This document shows positions 1 to 54,694 of a stretch of DNA of 64,000 bases, piece after piece. The stretch's first letter is position 1. Each line of letters begins with the position of its first letter. A model generated the notes under the pieces. That model was not told where the DNA came from, made no database searches, and saw nothing but the letters and a program-made list of their open reading frames with translations. The position numbers and the translations under genes were made by a program. Origin of the DNA: Phycisphaerae bacterium (GTDB taxonomy: Bacteria; Planctomycetota; Phycisphaerae; Sedimentisphaerales; Anaerobacaceae); contig JAAYBV010000003.1 in NCBI GenBank assembly GCA_012744475.1, positions 1 through 64,000 of the forward strand, in the 5' to 3' direction.

Positions 1-38
1 AGATCGCCGAGATCGAACTGCTCGGCGCCGCCCAGTAG
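1..38 (+). CDS. 3' end of an unidentified gene
   Basis: Only the last 11 codons and a TAG stop (36-38) lie in the window; the readable tail is IAEIELLGAAQ. It is followed by a strong terminator hairpin at 92-122, which fits the end of a transcription unit. Nothing can be said about its function. Confidence 0.5.
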   Translation, partial: IAEIELLGAAQ

Positions 39-48451: not shown

Positions 48452-48484
48452 GATAGGTCCCATAGGTCCGATCGGACCTATTCC
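48452..48484. repeat. GGTCC/GGACC palindromic repeat at the trpB stop codon
   Basis: TAGGTCCCATAGGTCC is followed by its partial inverse GATCGGACCTATTCC; the TAG stop of trpB (48478-48480, minus strand) lies inside. Related units are at 49675-49702 and 53921-53942. Confidence 0.5.
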
Positions 48485-49653
48485 AACGGTCGATGTGCTT
48501 CCACGATTCCGACGTCTTTGTCACCCCGGCCGGAAAGATTGACCATGACGACAGTCTCCGGGGCCAGCGTGCCCTTCAGGCCGGCCACGTAGGCCAGCGC
48601 GTGCGTGCTCTCCAGGGCCGGCAAGATGCCCTCGATGCGCGTCAGCAGGCCAAATGTCTCGAGTACGTCCGCATCCTCGGCGGCGACGTACTGGGCCCGG
48701 CCGATGTCACTCAGGTAGCAGTGTTCCGGGCCCACCCCCGGATAGTCCAGGCCCGCGCTGATCGACTCGGTGTCCAGAACCTGCCCCTCCTCATCCTGGA
48801 GCAAATATGACCGCGCCCCGTGAAGGACTCCGGGCGTGCCCGCAACGATGCTGGCGGCGTGCTTGCCCGTGGCGACTCCCTGGCCGCCGGCCTCGACGCC
48901 GATCAGCTTGACGTCGGGGTCGTCGATGAAGTGAGCGAAAGCCCCGATGGCGTTACTGCCACCTCCGACGCAGGCAACCACCATGTCGGGCAGGCGGCCC
49001 ACCTGCTCGAGAAACTGCTGCCGGGCCTCTCGGCTGATGCAACTCTGGAAGTGCCGCACGATCATCGGGTAGGGGTGCGGCCCGGCGGCGGTGCCGAACA
49101 GGTAGAACGTGTCCGTCACGTGCGCCGTCCAGTATCGCAGCGCATCGTTGATCGCATCCTTGAGGGTCCCTGTACCGCCCTCCACCGGTATGACTTCCGC
49201 GCCGCAGAGCTTCATCTTGTGGACGTTGACGCTTTGTCGCGCGACGTCGGTGACGCCCATGAAGATTTTCGTTTCCATCCCGAGCAGGGCGCCGATCATG
49301 GCGGTGGCCAACCCATGCTGGCCCGCGCCGGTTTCGGCGATCAGCTTGCTCTTGCCCATGTGCTTGGCGAGCAGGCCCTGGCCGAGCGTGTTGTTGACCT
49401 TGTGCGCGCCGCCGTGGAGCAGATCCTCGCGCTTGAGGTAGACCTGGAATCCCACGTGCTCGCTGAATCGCTTCGCATGGTACAGCGGGGTAGGGCGGCC
49501 GGCGTAGTGCGCCGACAGGTCGGCCAGCTCCGCCACGAACGCCGGATCGTCACGAAATCGATCGAACGCCTCCTCCAGTTCCTCCAGCACCGGGATGAGC
49601 ACCTCGGGGACGTAGTAGCCGCCGTAGTCGCCGTATCTGCCTCTGTGTTTCAT
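48478..49653 (-). CDS. trpB: Tryptophan synthase beta chain
   Basis: A 391-residue PLP enzyme condensing indole with serine. The PLP lysine is in [12 protein letters not shown], and [16 protein letters not shown] and [13 protein letters not shown] follow as in TrpB1 enzymes. AAAGGA precedes the ATG at 49653. A frame open further upstream belongs to a repeat and trpF and is not used. The stop codon is inside a short palindromic repeat. Confidence 0.97.
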
Positions 49654-49674
49654 GTCGAATGTCCTTTCAAACAC

Positions 49675-49702
49675 AGGTCCCATTGGACCTACAGGACCTA
49701 TG
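49675..49702. repeat. GGTCC/GGACC repeat between trpF and trpB
   Basis: AGGTCCCATTGGACCTACAG followed by GACCTATGG: the same GGTCC-AT-GGACC units as at 48452-48484, filling most of the 50-bp trpF-trpB spacer just upstream of the trpB ribosome-binding site. Confidence 0.5.
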
Positions 49703-49703
49703 G

Positions 49704-50327
49704 TCACGCTCTCAAGTGTCGGATATTGTCGAAGAGCCGCTTCATCTTCTGGTGGTCTTTCTTGCCGGGCGAAGCCTCGACACCGCTGCACACGTCGATC
49801 CCATAGACCCCGAGTTCGACGGCCGCGACCGCGTTGTCCGGATTGATCCCACCGGCCAGGAAGATGCGCTTGCCGATGTGGCCGATGATGTTCCAGTCGA
49901 AGGTCAGGCCGGTGCCGCCGTACTTGCTCGGGTCGTACGCATCGAGCACGATGGCGTCCGTGAAGAAATTGTCCGCCTGTTGAATGTCGCCGGCATTTTT
50001 GACGCGGATCGCCTTCATCGTCTTGGGGCTGTCGTAGGCCAGCCAGCGACAGAATTCGGCGTTCTCGTCCCCATGCAACTGGATCCAGTCGAGCTGGCAT
50101 TGGCTGGCGATCTCCCGCGTCTCTTCGAGGGAACTGTTGACGAACACGCCGGCGAGGTCCACGAAGGCGGGCAGCTTGTTGATGATCTTCGTCGCCGCTT
50201 CCGGCTGGATATACCGCGGGCTTTTCAAGTAGAAGTTGAACCCGATCAGGTCGGCGCCCATTTCCAGGGCCGCCACAGCATCATCGTAGTTCGTAATTCC
50301 GCAAATCTTGACCTTAGGTATCAGCAT
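49704..50327 (-). CDS. trpF: Phosphoribosylanthranilate isomerase
   Basis: A 207-residue (beta/alpha)8 enzyme doing the Amadori rearrangement of phosphoribosylanthranilate. The catalytic Cys is in VKICGITN, the catalytic Asp in IVLDAYD, and LAGGINPDN forms the phosphate site. It sits between trpD and trpB; trpC, which should act next in the pathway, is not in this cluster. Confidence 0.96.
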
Positions 50328-50354: not shown

Positions 50355-51374
50355 TCACCCTTTGTTGGAGACCTCGATCAGTGTTTCGAGACAGTTCATG
50401 GCCTTCCCGTCGTCGATCGAATACTCCGCCAGCGGGATGGCCTGTTGAAAGTCGTTCACCAGTCCGGCCACGATGATCGCGGCGGCCGCGTTCAGGACAA
50501 CGATATCGCGGCGAGGCCCCTGTTCCTTGCCGCTGAGGATATGGCGGATCAGAGCGGCATTGGTGATGGCGTCACCGCTGCCAAGCTGGTCGATGGACGC
50601 GCCGGCGAAACCGAATTCGGACGGGTCGAGCTCTAAGGATTCGATGCGCCCATCACGCAGCTCGATGACCTTCGTCTTGCCCAACAGGCTGATCTCGTCC
50701 ATGCCCTGGCCGTGGACGACCATTGCCCGTTTGGCGCCCAGCAGCCGGAGCGTTTCGGCGATGCGGTCCAGCAGCTCGACGTCGGAGACGCCCATCACCT
50801 GGGCGGTCGCGCGGGCGGGATTGGCCAGAGGCCCTAAGATGTTGAACGCGGTCCGAAAGTCCAGGCTCTTGCGGATCGGCTGGACAAAACGCATCGCCGG
50901 ATGGAACTTCGGCGCGAACATGAACCCGATGTGGGCCCGTCGAATGCACTCGGCGACGACGTCCGGGCCAGGGTCGATCTTGACACCCAACTCGTCGAGC
51001 ACGTCGGCGGAGCCGCACCGGCTGGTAATGCCGCGGTTGCCATGCTTGGCGACGTAGACGCCGGCGCCGGCTGCGACCAGAGCGGCGGCGGTCGAGATGT
51101 TGAATGTCTTGATCACCGCGCCGCCCGTGCCACAGGTGTCAACGAGGTTGTCGATTTCCACGTTGACGGGCACCGCATGATCGCGAAGCGACTGTGCCAG
51201 GCCCGCCATCTCCGCCGATGTCGCCCGCTTCATCCGCATCATGGCCAGGAATGCCGCGATCTGCACCTCCGTGACTTCGCCCTCGAAGATCCGGTCTTGC
51301 AGGGCCTTGGCCTGCTCGAACGTCAGGTCGTTTCCGTTCAGGATGATCTCCAGGTACTCGGTGATTGTCGCCAT
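50355..51374 (-). CDS. trpD: Anthranilate phosphoribosyltransferase
   Basis: A 339-residue type III phosphoribosyltransferase joining anthranilate to PRPP. The PRPP glycine motif DTCGTGGAVIKTFNIST, KHGNRGITSRCGSADVLDELG and the LGPLANPA motif are intact. It is a separate protein, not fused to TrpG, and begins 3 bp after the trpG stop, so translation is probably coupled. Confidence 0.97.
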   Translation of the reverse strand: MATITEYLEIILNGNDLTFEQAKALQDRIFEGEVTEVQIAAFLAMMRMKRATSAEMAGLAQSLRDHAVPVNVEIDNLVDTCGTGGAVIKTFNISTAAALVAAGAGVYVAKHGNRGITSRCGSADVLDELGVKIDPGPDVVAECIRRAHIGFMFAPKFHPAMRFVQPIRKSLDFRTAFNILGPLANPARATAQVMGVSDVELLDRIAETLRLLGAKRAMVVHGQGMDEISLLGKTKVIELRDGRIESLELDPSEFGFAGASIDQLGSGDAITNAALIRHILSGKEQGPRRDIVVLNAAAAIIVAGLVNDFQQAIPLAEYSIDDGKAMNCLETLIEVSNKG

Positions 51375-51377
51375 GGC

Positions 51378-51989
51378 TTAGCTCCCTACCGTTTGTCTCT
51401 TCTGGGCCGCGATGCGCAGGATGTTCTGGATGATCTTGCCCCCGGCGGGGGTCAGGATGCTCTCGGGATGGAACTGGACGCCGTAGATGGGCAACTCCTT
51501 GTGCTGGACGCCCATGACGACGCCCTCGAATTCTGCGGTTTTCTCCAGGCAGTCGGGCAATCGCTGGGCCATCAGGCTGTGGTACCGCCCGGCCTGGAGC
51601 GGGTTCTCGATGCCTGCGAACAGCCCTTTCTCGTTGTGGCTGACGCGCGAGGGCTTGCCGTGCATCGGCTCCGGGGCGTGGCCGATCGTGCCGCCGAAGT
51701 GCTGCACGATGATCTGGTGCCCCAGGCAGACGCCGAAGATGGGCAGCTTGTCCTGGAAATACGCCACCGCTTCGAGCGACACGCCAGCAGTGTCCGGGTT
51801 GCCCGGTCCCGGCGAGAGCACCAGTAGATCGGGATCGAGCTGGGCACAGACCGCAATCAGATCGTCGAGGCTCGTGTCGGCGCGGTACACGCGGGTCGCG
51901 CAGCCCCGCTTGCCGAAATCGTCCACGAGGTTGTACGTGAACGAGTCGAAGTTGTCGATGAACAGGACTCTGGTGTCGTTCGTTTGCAT
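51378..51989 (-). CDS. trpG: Anthranilate synthase component II (glutamine amidotransferase)
   Basis: A 203-residue class I amidotransferase supplying ammonia to TrpE. IDNFDSFTYNLV, the nucleophile Cys in GVCLGHQ, YHSLMA and the His/Glu pair in VQFHPESILTPAG are present. The ATG at 51989 has AAGGA 8 nt upstream; a GTG 15 nt earlier is less likely. It could also serve a p-aminobenzoate synthase, as in other bacteria. Confidence 0.95.
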   Translation of the reverse strand: MQTNDTRVLFIDNFDSFTYNLVDDFGKRGCATRVYRADTSLDDLIAVCAQLDPDLLVLSPGPGNPDTAGVSLEAVAYFQDKLPIFGVCLGHQIIVQHFGGTIGHAPEPMHGKPSRVSHNEKGLFAGIENPLQAGRYHSLMAQRLPDCLEKTAEFEGVVMGVQHKELPIYGVQFHPESILTPAGGKIIQNILRIAAQKRQTVGS

Positions 51990-52030
51990 GGTTTCGTCCT
52001 TCACGCGGTGCTTTCGGTGTCACCTTGCGA

Positions 52031-53626
52031 TCACTGTCCTCGAATGGCGCGGATGCAGGAGCGGGCCTTGTGCTCGGTCTCTTCGAATTCGGTCTTGGGC
52101 ACACTGTCGTGCACGATCCCGGCGCCGGCGCGGATGTAGGCGGTGTGGTCGCGAACCTGGAGGCTGCGGATCGTGATGCAACTGTCGAACTGACCGTCCA
52201 CCGTCAGGTACATGACGGCGCCGCCGTAGTAGCCCCGCTTGTTCTTTTCGAGCCGGCGGATGATCTTCATCGCCTCGATCTTCGGCGCGCCGGTGAGCGT
52301 TCCCATATTCATCGTCGCCAGGTAGGCGCTTAGCGCATCGAGGTCGGGCCGGAGCGTGCCTTTGACGTTGCTGACCAGGTGCTGGACAGATTCGTATTTC
52401 TCCACGGTCAGCAGCTCATTGACGACCCGGCTGCCCGGATCGGCCACGCGGGCGATGTCGTTCCTCGCCAGGTCCACCAGCATCATATGCTCAGCCAGTT
52501 CCTTGCGGTCCAGCTTCAGCTCCGCCTCGTATCGGAAGTCGGTGTCGGGGTCGATCTCGCCGTCGATGCGTCCTCGCGGCTTGGTGCCCGCGATGGGCCG
52601 GATTTCGACATGGCGTGGACCGGTCCCGCTGACACGGAGGTTCAACTCGGGGCTGGAGCCCATCAGCACCGCGCTGGGCATGTTCAGATAGAACATGTAC
52701 GGCGACGGGTTCAGCTTGCGCAACCGCTTGTAAACGTCCAGCGGCTCGTCCGGACACGGTTCGGTGATCGTCCGGCTCAGAACGACCTGAAAGATGTCCC
52801 CGTCGACAATGTGCTGCTTGGCGGCGCGGACCATGTTCTCGTATTCGCTCTGGCCTGTATCGCTTGACGCGGCCAGCAGGGGGCCGTCGTAGCGCCTGCC
52901 CTTGGGCGGCTCGAACCGCGCCATGTTGAAGTAGTAATCGAAGGTGTCCTGCGCCTCGGCGACGACCGCCTCGCGGTTGCCGTTGGTGACCATGCAATTG
53001 ACCACGACATACCCCTGGTTGTGCTCGTGGTCCATCAGGAAGATGTTGTCGGCGAAAAAAAGCTCGTAGTCGGGATTGCCCAGGACGTCCTGCTCGCTGG
53101 CCGGCAGCTTCTCGAACTGGTCCACGAAGTCATAGCTGAGGGCCCCGAGCAGGCCGCAGGTGACTCGGAAGGGTTTGCTTGCCAGCCGGAACGCGAACGC
53201 CACCGCCCGCAGAACGTCCATCTGATTTGTGCTGCGAAGCCGGGTCTGTTCGTCCATCGTCCCTTCTGTCGGCCGGATCCGCCCGATGATCCGATCCGCC
53301 TCGAACATGACCGTTTCGCAGAAGGCAAACCGCTTCTCGTCACCGGCCAGGTAACCGAGCATCCGCTTTCCGGTCTTGCTGAGGGCCTGGATGCGAAAGT
53401 CCAATCCTGTGCCGGTCAGGTACAGGGCCGGTCGGGCGGTCCCGAAACTGAGTGCCCCCGTGCCCGCCAGGTACTCGCGGGATTCCAGCAGGCAGCAATT
53501 CTTGGCCCGGCCGTAGTCGGTCAGTTTCGCGAAGAAATCGAGGGGATCGCCCACGTCGATCCGCTTGACGATCGGGACGATCTGGCCCGGTTCGGCCCCG
53601 CGTATGATCTGTCGATAATCATCCAT
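52031..53626 (-). CDS. trpE: Anthranilate synthase component I
   Basis: A 531-residue chorismate-using enzyme, first committed step to tryptophan. The feedback-binding motif CCLLESREYL near residue 45 matches the LLES site at which tryptophan inhibits TrpE; the chorismate site has IAGTKPRGR, ELAEHMMLVDLARND and LTGAPKIEAM. Full length. It is preceded by the trp leader peptide and attenuator (53679-53826), so it is controlled both by enzyme inhibition and by transcription. Confidence 0.97.
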   Translation of the reverse strand: MDDYRQIIRGAEPGQIVPIVKRIDVGDPLDFFAKLTDYGRAKNCCLLESREYLAGTGALSFGTARPALYLTGTGLDFRIQALSKTGKRMLGYLAGDEKRFAFCETVMFEADRIIGRIRPTEGTMDEQTRLRSTNQMDVLRAVAFAFRLASKPFRVTCGLLGALSYDFVDQFEKLPASEQDVLGNPDYELFFADNIFLMDHEHNQGYVVVNCMVTNGNREAVVAEAQDTFDYYFNMARFEPPKGRRYDGPLLAASSDTGQSEYENMVRAAKQHIVDGDIFQVVLSRTITEPCPDEPLDVYKRLRKLNPSPYMFYLNMPSAVLMGSSPELNLRVSGTGPRHVEIRPIAGTKPRGRIDGEIDPDTDFRYEAELKLDRKELAEHMMLVDLARNDIARVADPGSRVVNELLTVEKYESVQHLVSNVKGTLRPDLDALSAYLATMNMGTLTGAPKIEAMKIIRRLEKNKRGYYGGAVMYLTVDGQFDSCITIRSLQVRDHTAYIRAGAGIVHDSVPKTEFEETEHKARSCIRAIRGQ

Positions 53627-53678
53627 AAGTCCGGCTCTCAGAATAGCGAAGTTCTACTGACACAGCCGCCGAAACACC

Positions 53679-53716
53679 AAAAAAAAACGCAGCCTGCTGG
53701 TTCCAACAGGCTGCGT
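53679..53716 (-). terminator. trp attenuator (intrinsic terminator in the trpE leader)
   Basis: On the minus strand ACGCAGCCTG (53716-53707 complement) and CAGGCTGCGT form a perfect 10-bp stem followed by nine U (53687-53679), 53 nt before the trpE ATG. It follows the leader peptide stop by 35 nt. An alternative pairing is visible: GGGCGAGCG, the last codons of the leader peptide, with CGCAGCCT of the terminator 5' arm, which would open the terminator when the ribosome stalls at the Trp codons. Confidence 0.85.
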
Positions 53717-53751
53717 CACAAGGTCTTTCTTAGCGGTTTTTCTATGGCAAA

Positions 53752-53826
53752 TTATCGCTCGCCCGTCGGATTTATCTCCTCAGGCCACCACCAAAAGTTG
53801 CAATGATAGCGATAGTTCAGCGTCAT
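53752..53826 (-). CDS. trpL: trp operon leader peptide with three consecutive Trp codons
   Basis: A 24-codon frame, ATG at 53826 and TAA at 53754-53752, whose centre reads CNFWWWPEE: codons 12-14 (53793-53785) are TGG TGG TGG. It sits between a consensus promoter and the attenuator hairpin, exactly the design of translation-coupled attenuation: tryptophan shortage stalls the ribosome at W12-W14 and spares downstream trp genes from termination. The promoter -10 box lies only 9 nt before the ATG, so the mRNA would have almost no 5' leader and no usable Shine-Dalgarno site. It is too short for normal gene finders. Confidence 0.85.
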   Translation of the reverse strand: MTLNYRYHCNFWWWPEEINPTGER

Positions 53827-53835
53827 AGTGCCCCT

Positions 53836-53864
53836 ATTAAACCGGCTTTCTCCGAGTTTGTCAA
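53836..53864 (-). promoter_or_regulatory. trp promoter
   Basis: On the minus strand a perfect TTGACA (53859-53864) and TTTAAT (53836-53841) are spaced by 17 bp. The predicted start near 53829 gives a 3-nt leader before the trpL ATG. Confidence 0.8.
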
Positions 53865-53904
53865 GCGGGAAAAAACAGAAATTTTTGTCCACCCGGTTCC
53901 GCAG

Positions 53905-54645
53905 CTACCATTGGGCCTCGATATAGGGTCCTATCGGACCTTCGGGTTTGGGTTTCGGGCGGCTTTTCAGGATCGCCTCGGCGATGGCGATGTCGCTCGG
54001 GACCGTGATCTTGATGTTGGACGAATCCGTGCGGACGATGGAAACCTCGTGGCCCAGCGCTTCGACCAGGAAGGCGTCATCAGTGACTTGGGCGGGGTCG
54101 AGCCGGGTCAGATTCTCGTAGGCCTTGCGGAGCAGGCCGGCCTCGAAGACCTGGGGCGTCTGGGCTTCGAAGAGATTGGCCCGGTCCACGGTCCGCGTGA
54201 TGACGCCGTCCTTGGCCTCCTTGAGGGTCGCCGTGACCGGACAGGCGGGAATGGCGGCGCCGCTCTTGCCGGCGGCGGCGATGACCTCCCCGACGAGCTG
54301 GTCGGTCGCACAGCATCGGCACGCATCGTGGACCGCGATCAGATCGATGTCGTCGTTGACCAGTTCGAGGGCCTTTCGGACGGTATCGAACCGCTCGCCT
54401 CCACCGAAGAAGATCTTGACGCCGAAGAACTTCAGGTTGGCGCCCCATTTGACGTTGACGATCTCCTCGTCTGCCTTGGAGATGCCCAGGAGCACCTGTT
54501 TGACGTCGTCGCGGTTGGCGAACAGCTCGATGCTTCGCACGAAGACCGCCCGGCCGTCAACGTCGGTGAATTGCTTCTTTCGCTTTCCCCCGAACCGGGT
54601 TCCCGGTCCGGCGGCACAGATGATCGCTGCCACACTCTTGGCCAA
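53905..54645 (-). CDS. ispD: 2-C-methyl-D-erythritol 4-phosphate cytidylyltransferase IspD
   Basis: A 246-residue enzyme of the MEP isoprenoid route, transferring CMP from CTP to methylerythritol phosphate. IICAAGPGTRFGG with the GKRKKQF basic loop, LIAVHDACR and QTPQVFEAGLL are typical. Translation starts at TTG (54645) with AGGAG upstream; an ATG at 54684 would add 13 residues derived from a palindromic repeat. The last 14 residues (PEGPIGPYIEAQW region) are encoded by a GGTCC-type repeat and are not part of the family fold. Confidence 0.95.
   Translation of the reverse strand: MAKSVAAIICAAGPGTRFGGKRKKQFTDVDGRAVFVRSIELFANRDDVKQVLLGISKADEEIVNVKWGANLKFFGVKIFFGGGERFDTVRKALELVNDDIDLIAVHDACRCCATDQLVGEVIAAAGKSGAAIPACPVTATLKEAKDGVITRTVDRANLFEAQTPQVFEAGLLRKAYENLTRLDPAQVTDDAFLVEALGHEVSIVRTDSSNIKITVPSDIAIAEAILKSRPKPKPEGPIGPYIEAQW
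53921..53942. repeat. GGTCC/GGACC repeat inside the 3' end of ispD
   Basis: ATATAGGGTCCTATCGGACC resembles the repeat units at 48452-48484 and 49675-49702 and is translated into the Pro-Gly-Ile-Gly tail of IspD, just downstream of the trp promoter region on the other side. Confidence 0.4.
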
Positions 54646-54668
54646 CGTCTTCTCCTTTATTTGTTGGT

Positions 54669-54694
54669 GGGGGCGAATGATCATTCGCCCCTAC
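54669..54694. repeat. GGGCGAAT palindromic repeat upstream of ispD
   Basis: GGGCGAATGATCATTCGCCC is a perfect 20-bp palindrome at 54671-54690 with CTAC after it, 25 bp upstream of the ispD start and 12 bp after the cobO stop. It is the second copy of the element at 17967-17993. Confidence 0.65.

Follow-up and report, generated by a model that had tools for sequence, protein, structure and literature searches.

The window, i.e., the whole stretch of 64,000 nucleotides analysed here, comes from a Phycisphaerae genome (G000; 5.75 Mb in 118 contigs, 99.6% complete) and carries tryptophan biosynthesis genes on its minus strand. Between ispD and trpE lie a promoter, a short open reading frame (trpL) with three consecutive Trp codons, and four RNA segments followed by a run of T. 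The features, in the direction of transcription, are as follows.

53905-54684, minus strand: ispD, the same-strand gene upstream of the leader and trpE
53859-53864, minus strand: -35 box TTGACA, read from the sequence; exact TTGACA in 70 of 77 sequences
53836-53841, minus strand: -10 box TTTAAT, with a 17-nt spacer to the -35 box and 9 nt to the leader ATG (53826-53824)
53752-53826, minus strand: trpL leader ORF, 24 codons plus stop (MTLNYRYHCNFWWWPEEINPTGER), stop codon at 53754-53752
53785-53793, minus strand: TGG TGG TGG, three Trp codons, the proposed ribosome stall site (sequence and stall-position scan)
53777-53785, minus strand: segment 1 (GCCTGAGGA), 5' arm of the protector from the fold, lower helix counted; it shares the final G of the third TGG
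53756-53769, minus strand: segment 2 (CCGACGGGC GAGCG, that is CCGACGGGCGAGCG), partner of segment 1 or segment 3
53703-53715, minus strand: segment 3 (CGCAGCCTGTTGG), 3' arm of the antiterminator and 5' arm of the terminator (alignment helices)
53688-53700, minus strand: segment 4 (CCAGCAGGCTGCG), 3' arm of the terminator (terminator scan and alignment)
53679-53687, minus strand: nine-T run after the terminator, read from the sequence
52031-53626, minus strand: trpE, anthranilate synthase component 1, the controlled gene in the proposed model, above the NF010079 cut-off; start at 53626
51378-52004, minus strand: trpG-type glutamine amidotransferase, the gene after trpE (profile match)
50355-51374, minus strand: trpD, anthranilate phosphoribosyltransferase (profile match)
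48478-50100, minus strand: trpB (TIGR00263 match), with about 150 additional N-terminal residues as called

Two of the encoded proteins have peculiarities of their own. TIGR00263 covers residues 154-534 of the trpB ORF, and the approximately 150 residues that precede the TrpB match may stem from a fusion or from a start placed too far upstream. NF010079 (PRK13564) was the sole cut-off passed by the window TrpE among the 25 families listed. Its score against trpE_most was 406 bits, below the cut-off of 517.7, which is exceeded by a TrpE in 79 of 120 genomes of the class, hinting at gene replacement or transfer for the TrpE of the order, which is probably Sedimentisphaerales. The best PDB chains for the window TrpE are 1i1q and 1i7q, which we take to be the Salmonella and Serratia enzymes.

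The leader peptide is conserved upstream of trpE

Relatives were collected by a TrpE scan of the species-genome collection, from which the best 80 of 349 were used; the closest TrpE among these was that of L002 (94%). One locus, L066, has 1 nt of upstream DNA, leaving 79 relatives for comparison. A short ORF with adjacent Trp codons lies no more than 500 nt ahead of trpE in 78 of these relatives (in L022 across masked bases), against 0/79 reverse complements and 16/790 shuffled sequences. The sole exception, L075, keeps a leader with one Trp codon, MNSIVVTQKEYWRRPQA, which corresponds to the L165 leader MNSITLTQKEYWWRPQA minus one Trp codon. Conservation of the frame and its Trp codons in relatives, to which the first-pass annotation had looked for a check on its reading, is thus nearly complete.

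The leader frame is under purifying selection, as judged from codon comparison. Across 31 MRQ/MKQ...WWW-type leaders, the pooled dN/dS was 0.28 for codons 2-11, ahead of the Trp run, and variation was greatest at third codon positions. Leader length varies among the relatives, and the Trp codons are arranged as WWW, WWR, WWGW or WWAW at one place. Some leaders have CGG in place of the third Trp codon, a change that retains the GG of segment 1 and loses the Trp. In-frame insertions of additional codons, in part repeat-like, precede the Trp run in L029, L037, L052 and L081 and leave the frame intact.

The promoter position suggests a leaderless or nearly leaderless mRNA

The first-pass annotation had described a consensus promoter with its -10 box 9 nt from an ATG, a 24-codon leader with TGG TGG TGG, and a terminator with nine T followed by trpE, all of which we found on the minus strand, the promoter being TTGACA-17-TTTAAT. 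A simple promoter scan listed no promoter at the window locus because its rule requires A at the second position of the -10 box. We counted promoters in 77 sequences, namely the window and 76 loci (L022, L070, L066 and L075 were left out). The best promoter score reached at least 9.5 of 12.5 in 77/77, compared with 81 of 1540 shuffled 75-nt stretches, and the spacer was 17 nt in 76 of the 77. The gap between the end of the -10 box and the ATG was 6-10 nt (commonest 9) in 71/77 as first called. Taking an earlier in-frame ATG as the start brought five more sequences into this range, giving 76/77, with L081 at 13 nt; the almost leaderless layout proposed earlier thus extends to the relatives, as far as promoter position can tell. 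A Shine-Dalgarno-like motif, defined as GGAG, GAGG or AGGA at -16 to -5, precedes the leader ATG in 1/77.

A transcription start 6-9 nt past the -10 box would place the 5' end at the AUG or a few nucleotides off. We infer from this promoter position, rather than from a mapped end, that the mRNA begins at the leader start codon. Planctomycetes have been described as having few genes with Shine-Dalgarno sites and a bias suggesting leaderless or S1-dependent initiation, in the accessible part of a study that concerns one species (PMC5397173).

The strict pattern TTGACA-16..18-TWNAAT-5..9-ATG occurs five times in G000, compared with none in a backwards control. One site precedes trpL and another a 350-codon ORF; the other three, for this strict pattern in G000, precede short ORFs (14-35 codons) in which amino-acid runs are absent. 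The 350-codon ORF (L254, G000:C30:135674-135711) has an exact TTGACA / TAAAAT pair with the end of the -10 box 7 nt from its ATG, and is likely an ordinary gene of this genome with a leaderless mRNA.

Among trpE loci of the order, 23/29 have a leader together with a promoter score of at least 9.5; L086, L088, L101, L107, L108 and L111 fall below this filter, and family f3 is represented by L108 alone. The promoter ends approximately 6-11 nt before the ATG in families f1, f2, f6 and f7, and in G040 of f4. Two other f4 genomes (G032 and G036) and five f5 genomes (G028, G037, G424, G437 and G448) have Trp leaders with a 5' UTR of approximately 20-45 nt, measured from a -10-like box picked by eye. 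The Trp leaders of f5 and part of f4 have a Shine-Dalgarno-like stretch in this 5' UTR, and a third f4 genome, G027, has a weak leaderless score. The leaderless state has thus been gained or lost within the order, according to this comparison. The occurrence of a 5' UTR in leaders of f5 and part of f4 means that the switch does not depend on leaderless initiation.

These genomes also lend some weight to the most resilient of the alternatives that we considered, in which the same attenuator would be transcribed with a longer 5' UTR from another promoter further upstream and would not be leaderless. This arrangement is improbable at the window locus: against the distances of approximately 20-45 nt in f5 and the two f4 genomes stand the gap of 6-10 nt in 76/77 sequences at a near-consensus promoter and the near absence of Shine-Dalgarno-like motifs.

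Four segments form three mutually exclusive helices

To describe the RNA downstream of the promoter, we used an alignment (A1) of 77 rows, the window and 76 loci, from which L066 (1 nt of upstream DNA), L075 (no WW), L022 (masked bases) and L063 (no terminator by scan) were left out. The region 53600-53830 folds 4.6 standard deviations below dinucleotide shuffles. A terminator was found by scan in 78 of 79 leaders including the window, and the 79th, L063, has one visible by eye. The terminator stem (53717-53686) has 14 pairs, 8 of them G-C; the 10-bp stem reported in the first-pass annotation exists and is its inner part. Likewise, the pairing proposed there between the end of the leader, GGGCGAGCG, and the 5' arm of the terminator, CGCAGCCT, is just the inner part of a longer antiterminator, in which CCGACGGGC pairs with GCCTGTTGG and GCG with CGC. 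The three-segment switch built on that pairing has to be given up. The fold and the helices 1:2, 2:3 and 3:4 call for four segments; the one overlooked was segment 1 (GCCTG...GGA), which overlaps the last Trp codon.

The three helices were read from A1 and then tested on A1 itself, and the following figures are to be taken in that light. Helix 1:2, in which a CAGGC-type stretch pairs with the tail of the last Trp codon and the codons after it (GCCTG...), has 88.9% of its cells paired, compared with 25-44% when slid. Helix 2:3, CCGACAGGC-type with GCCTGTCGG, has 87.4% paired against 20-44% slid, and the terminator helix 3:4 has 92.3% against 25-50%. The covariation score lies above all 500 shuffles for each of the three. 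In the terminator, 8/10 pairs have changed on both sides. For helix 1:2, the corresponding figure of 4/6 pairs was reached by 59/500 shuffles, and the further pair types by 15/500; for helix 2:3, 7/12 pairs were changed on both sides (reached by 22/500 shuffles), with the further pair types reached by 67/500. When helix 2:3 was slid by -1 column, 35 doubly changed cells were counted, compared with 32 in register. The antiterminator and the terminator have segment 3 in common. Together, the alignment supports a protector (1:2), an antiterminator (2:3) and a terminator (3:4) that are mutually exclusive and conserved with compensatory changes, and the hairpins upstream of trpE that the first-pass annotation expected in related genomes are accordingly present.

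Ribosome position determines the predicted fold

The nascent RNA that we folded began two bases ahead of the called AUG and ended with segment 3; the ribosome was masked with a fixed footprint of our choice, 15 nt upstream and 11 nt from the first base of the A-site codon. Over the 77 sequences, the mean probability of the antiterminator, P(2:3), was 0.16 for ribosome-free RNA (0.03 in the window). It was 0.72 (window, 0.97) when the ribosome occupied the first Trp codon, 0.85 (0.99) when it occupied the last Trp codon in the row, and 0.03 (0.00) when it occupied the stop codon. P(2:3) was higher at the last Trp codon than at the stop codon in 77/77. When the stall was moved codon by codon, P(2:3) lay at 0.20-0.37 ahead of the Trp codons, reached 0.71-0.85 over the five codons that begin with the first Trp codon, and then dropped to 0.34 and 0.05. 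The zone of high P(2:3) thus consists of the Trp codons and the codons just behind them. The ribosome-free RNA favours 2:3 in 12/77, so termination without a ribosome is not universal in the model, and 2:3 persists with the ribosome at the stop codon in 1/77. In this folding model, the dependence on position follows the logic of a classical attenuator, including termination without a ribosome, and it agrees with more read-through by stalling on the Trp codons when charged Trp-tRNA is low.

An RNA that senses a ligand or a protein is very improbable

A strong conserved structure with alternative helices could also belong to an RNA that senses a ligand or a protein (T-box, riboswitch or TRAP-type), for which the Trp-rich ORF would be incidental. 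We consider this very improbable in view of the purifying selection on the leader frame and the recurrence of Trp codons at one place as WWW, WWR, WWGW and WWAW. Moreover, a search with Rfam 15 gave nothing at gathering score in the window stretch 53500-54000 and 0 matches in 7 loci; a plus-strand match to ST7-OT3_4 at 18.5 bits, compared with a gathering score of 80, was set aside as chance. The profiles for TRAP (PF02081) and TrpR (PF01371) had 0 matches in G000, which is 99.6% complete; as controls, PF02081 matched B. subtilis, and PF01371 matched both E. coli and B. subtilis. The remaining candidate, an ordinary ispD terminator combined with a chance ORF, has the same-strand ispD upstream and the commonness of intergenic terminators in its favour, but is scarcely credible and contradicted by the comparative data, since the promoter sits between ispD and the terminator and the leader is kept in 78/79 relatives compared with 0/79 on the control strand.

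The element is widespread in the order, and other families have unrelated leaders

Using a covariance model (R1), we found matches at E up to 0.01 in 72 of 88 sampled genomes of the order, with a single match in 65 of the 72. This count is an upper figure because at least two matches, the sole ones of G440 and G445, look like chance by inspection and the weak matches were read in part. Of 13 weak additional matches that we read, three were Trp leaders (L264, L266 and L267) and ten were not, several of the ten being PEP-CTERM-like protein ends followed by a terminator. L257, L258, L259 and L261 have such PEP-CTERM-like ends (PEPATMALLGLGGLALIRRKK and similar) and then strong terminators, three with a GGGGCCTG stem that mimics the attenuator. 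L266 (G424:C34:2148-2259, minus strand) has, by eye, a Trp-rich leader, MKNAANIWYSWWWRSRQYVGPGQ, and a terminator before a trpB-like gene, and another trp gene may therefore be attenuated in family f5.

In a sample of 294 genomes of the phylum, searched with stricter filters, R1 had three matches, all within the order and one of them G000 itself, and no match outside the order. Distant homologues could be missed with these filters, which passed over G082, whose leader we read as L166.

Leaderless Trp leaders in the class and phylum were scored by a promoter score of at least 8 and two Trp within four codons. The stretches (316-801 nt) were cut from the starts of HMM matches, some of which (e.g., L158) lie inside the gene, and the 100 class and 40 phylum stretches are a selection from longer lists, so that the counts are rough lower figures. 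Such a leader was found in 21/100 class stretches upstream of trpE, compared with 0/100 reverse complements and 0.8 expected by shuffling. Nine of the 21 come from the order and 12 from other families; we judged ten of these 12 convincing (f10, f16, f19 and f26) and two weak. In other classes, 3/40 stretches scored, and L239 and L246 have a terminator directly after the leader, by eye. L173, L197 and L225 are weak and were not counted as convincing. Leaderless Trp leaders elsewhere in the phylum are recurrent and unrelated to the element of the order.

Discussion

The conserved leader, the selection on its frame, the covarying helices and the folding with a placed ribosome all support the reading of a Trp attenuator that the first-pass annotation had advanced. 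We propose that the trp operon of the window is controlled by a ribosome-mediated transcription attenuator with a leaderless or nearly leaderless leader-peptide mRNA, to which we give a probability of roughly 0.9. The element itself is real, correctly read and well conserved; its function as an attenuator in vivo is predicted from the comparison of genomes. In the proposed mechanism, transcription would start at the AUG or within about 4 nt of it, so that a ribosome would load on the nascent 5' end without a Shine-Dalgarno site. When Trp-tRNA is plentiful, the ribosome would pass the three Trp codons, reach the stop codon and cover segment 2. The terminator (3:4) would then form, and transcription would end ahead of trpE. 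With scarce Trp-tRNA, the ribosome would stall on the Trp codons and mask segment 1, allowing segments 2 and 3 to pair and trpE and the genes behind it to be transcribed. Without a ribosome, the protector (1:2) would form and the terminator would win. For cells, we infer the 5' end, the ribosome stalling and the response to Trp from these patterns.

The trp leader of E. coli has a protector, an antiterminator and a terminator, with Trp codons at segment 1; its 5' UTR is longer and includes a Shine-Dalgarno site, and TrpR repression acts in addition. By description, the planctomycete element shares the four-segment logic and the Trp codons at segment 1, but to judge from promoter position it has next to no 5' UTR, and a Trp_repressor match is absent.

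Outside proteobacteria, actinobacterial trp attenuators have been predicted in Corynebacterium and Streptomyces, with double or triple UGG leader peptides and GC-rich terminators, in the part of the report available (PMC1262725). Their UGG-rich leaders and terminators resemble ours by description, in another phylum.

Leaderless trp attenuators are already known from Sinorhizobium and Streptomyces, and the planctomycete case adds another. As far as the accessible text of PMC7298713 goes, rnTrpL of S. meliloti starts with the ATG of trpL, trpE(G) has an attenuator with a Trp-dependent terminator/antiterminator switch before trpE, and there is no repression of transcription; translation of the leaderless trpL ORF is indicated by ribosome profiling in a partly available source (PMC10117765). 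The likeness lies in the leaderless leader and the Trp-dependent switch upstream of trpE. Unlike the 24-codon leader of the window, the S. meliloti peptide has 14 codons, in another phylum, and the two were likened by description, without a sequence alignment. Functions in trans of the RNA and the peptide are reported in Sinorhizobium.

In S. lividans, trpL1 is described, in the part of PMC8079986 at hand, as leaderless, with an 18-codon WWW peptide (MFAHSTRNWWWTAHPAAH) and, upstream of trpE, a pair of hairpins and a U-rich stretch. This is again a leaderless WWW leader with hairpins and a U-rich stretch ahead of trpE, whereas the S. lividans trpE is monocistronic and belongs to another phylum. 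Covariation of a protector helix for trpL1 was not seen in that part of the paper.

In the portions of the open-licence literature that were accessible, we found no description of a trp attenuator in planctomycetes or Phycisphaerae. The available part of a 2016 survey counts leader genes in many phyla including Planctomycetes and is concerned with the spacing of leader genes, not with planctomycete trp attenuation (PMC4833913), and the corresponding parts of PMC12125101 and PMC10117765 mention planctomycetes in other contexts.

The analysis thus extends classical ribosome-mediated trp attenuation, with comparative evidence for three helices, to a phylum for which we found no such description, and it defines an RNA element that is matched by no family of Rfam 15 and is carried by most sampled genomes of the order. 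Leaderless trp leaders now appear in a third distant lineage after Sinorhizobium and Streptomyces, and with the unrelated versions in other planctomycete families, attenuators seem to have arrived at leaderless initiation repeatedly. That this mode of initiation is part of the regulatory logic in the order seems unlikely, if conceivable: because a 5' AUG can be loaded on leaving RNA polymerase, the first ribosome would trail the polymerase from almost the first nucleotide. If so, the level of read-through would reflect both how far Trp-tRNA is charged and how many ribosomes capable of initiating on leaderless mRNAs are available. The change within one order between UTR-bearing leaders (f5, part of f4) and leaderless ones (f1, f2, f6, f7 and at least one f4 genome) would then represent a natural experiment on the influence of initiation mode on attenuation. 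On this reading, the attenuated RNA, of approximately 148 nt with a start near the AUG, could also act in trans as do rnTrpL and peTrpL of Sinorhizobium. Finally, a switch of this kind requires translation to follow close behind transcription in these bacteria, which amounts to a testable prediction for planctomycete cells.
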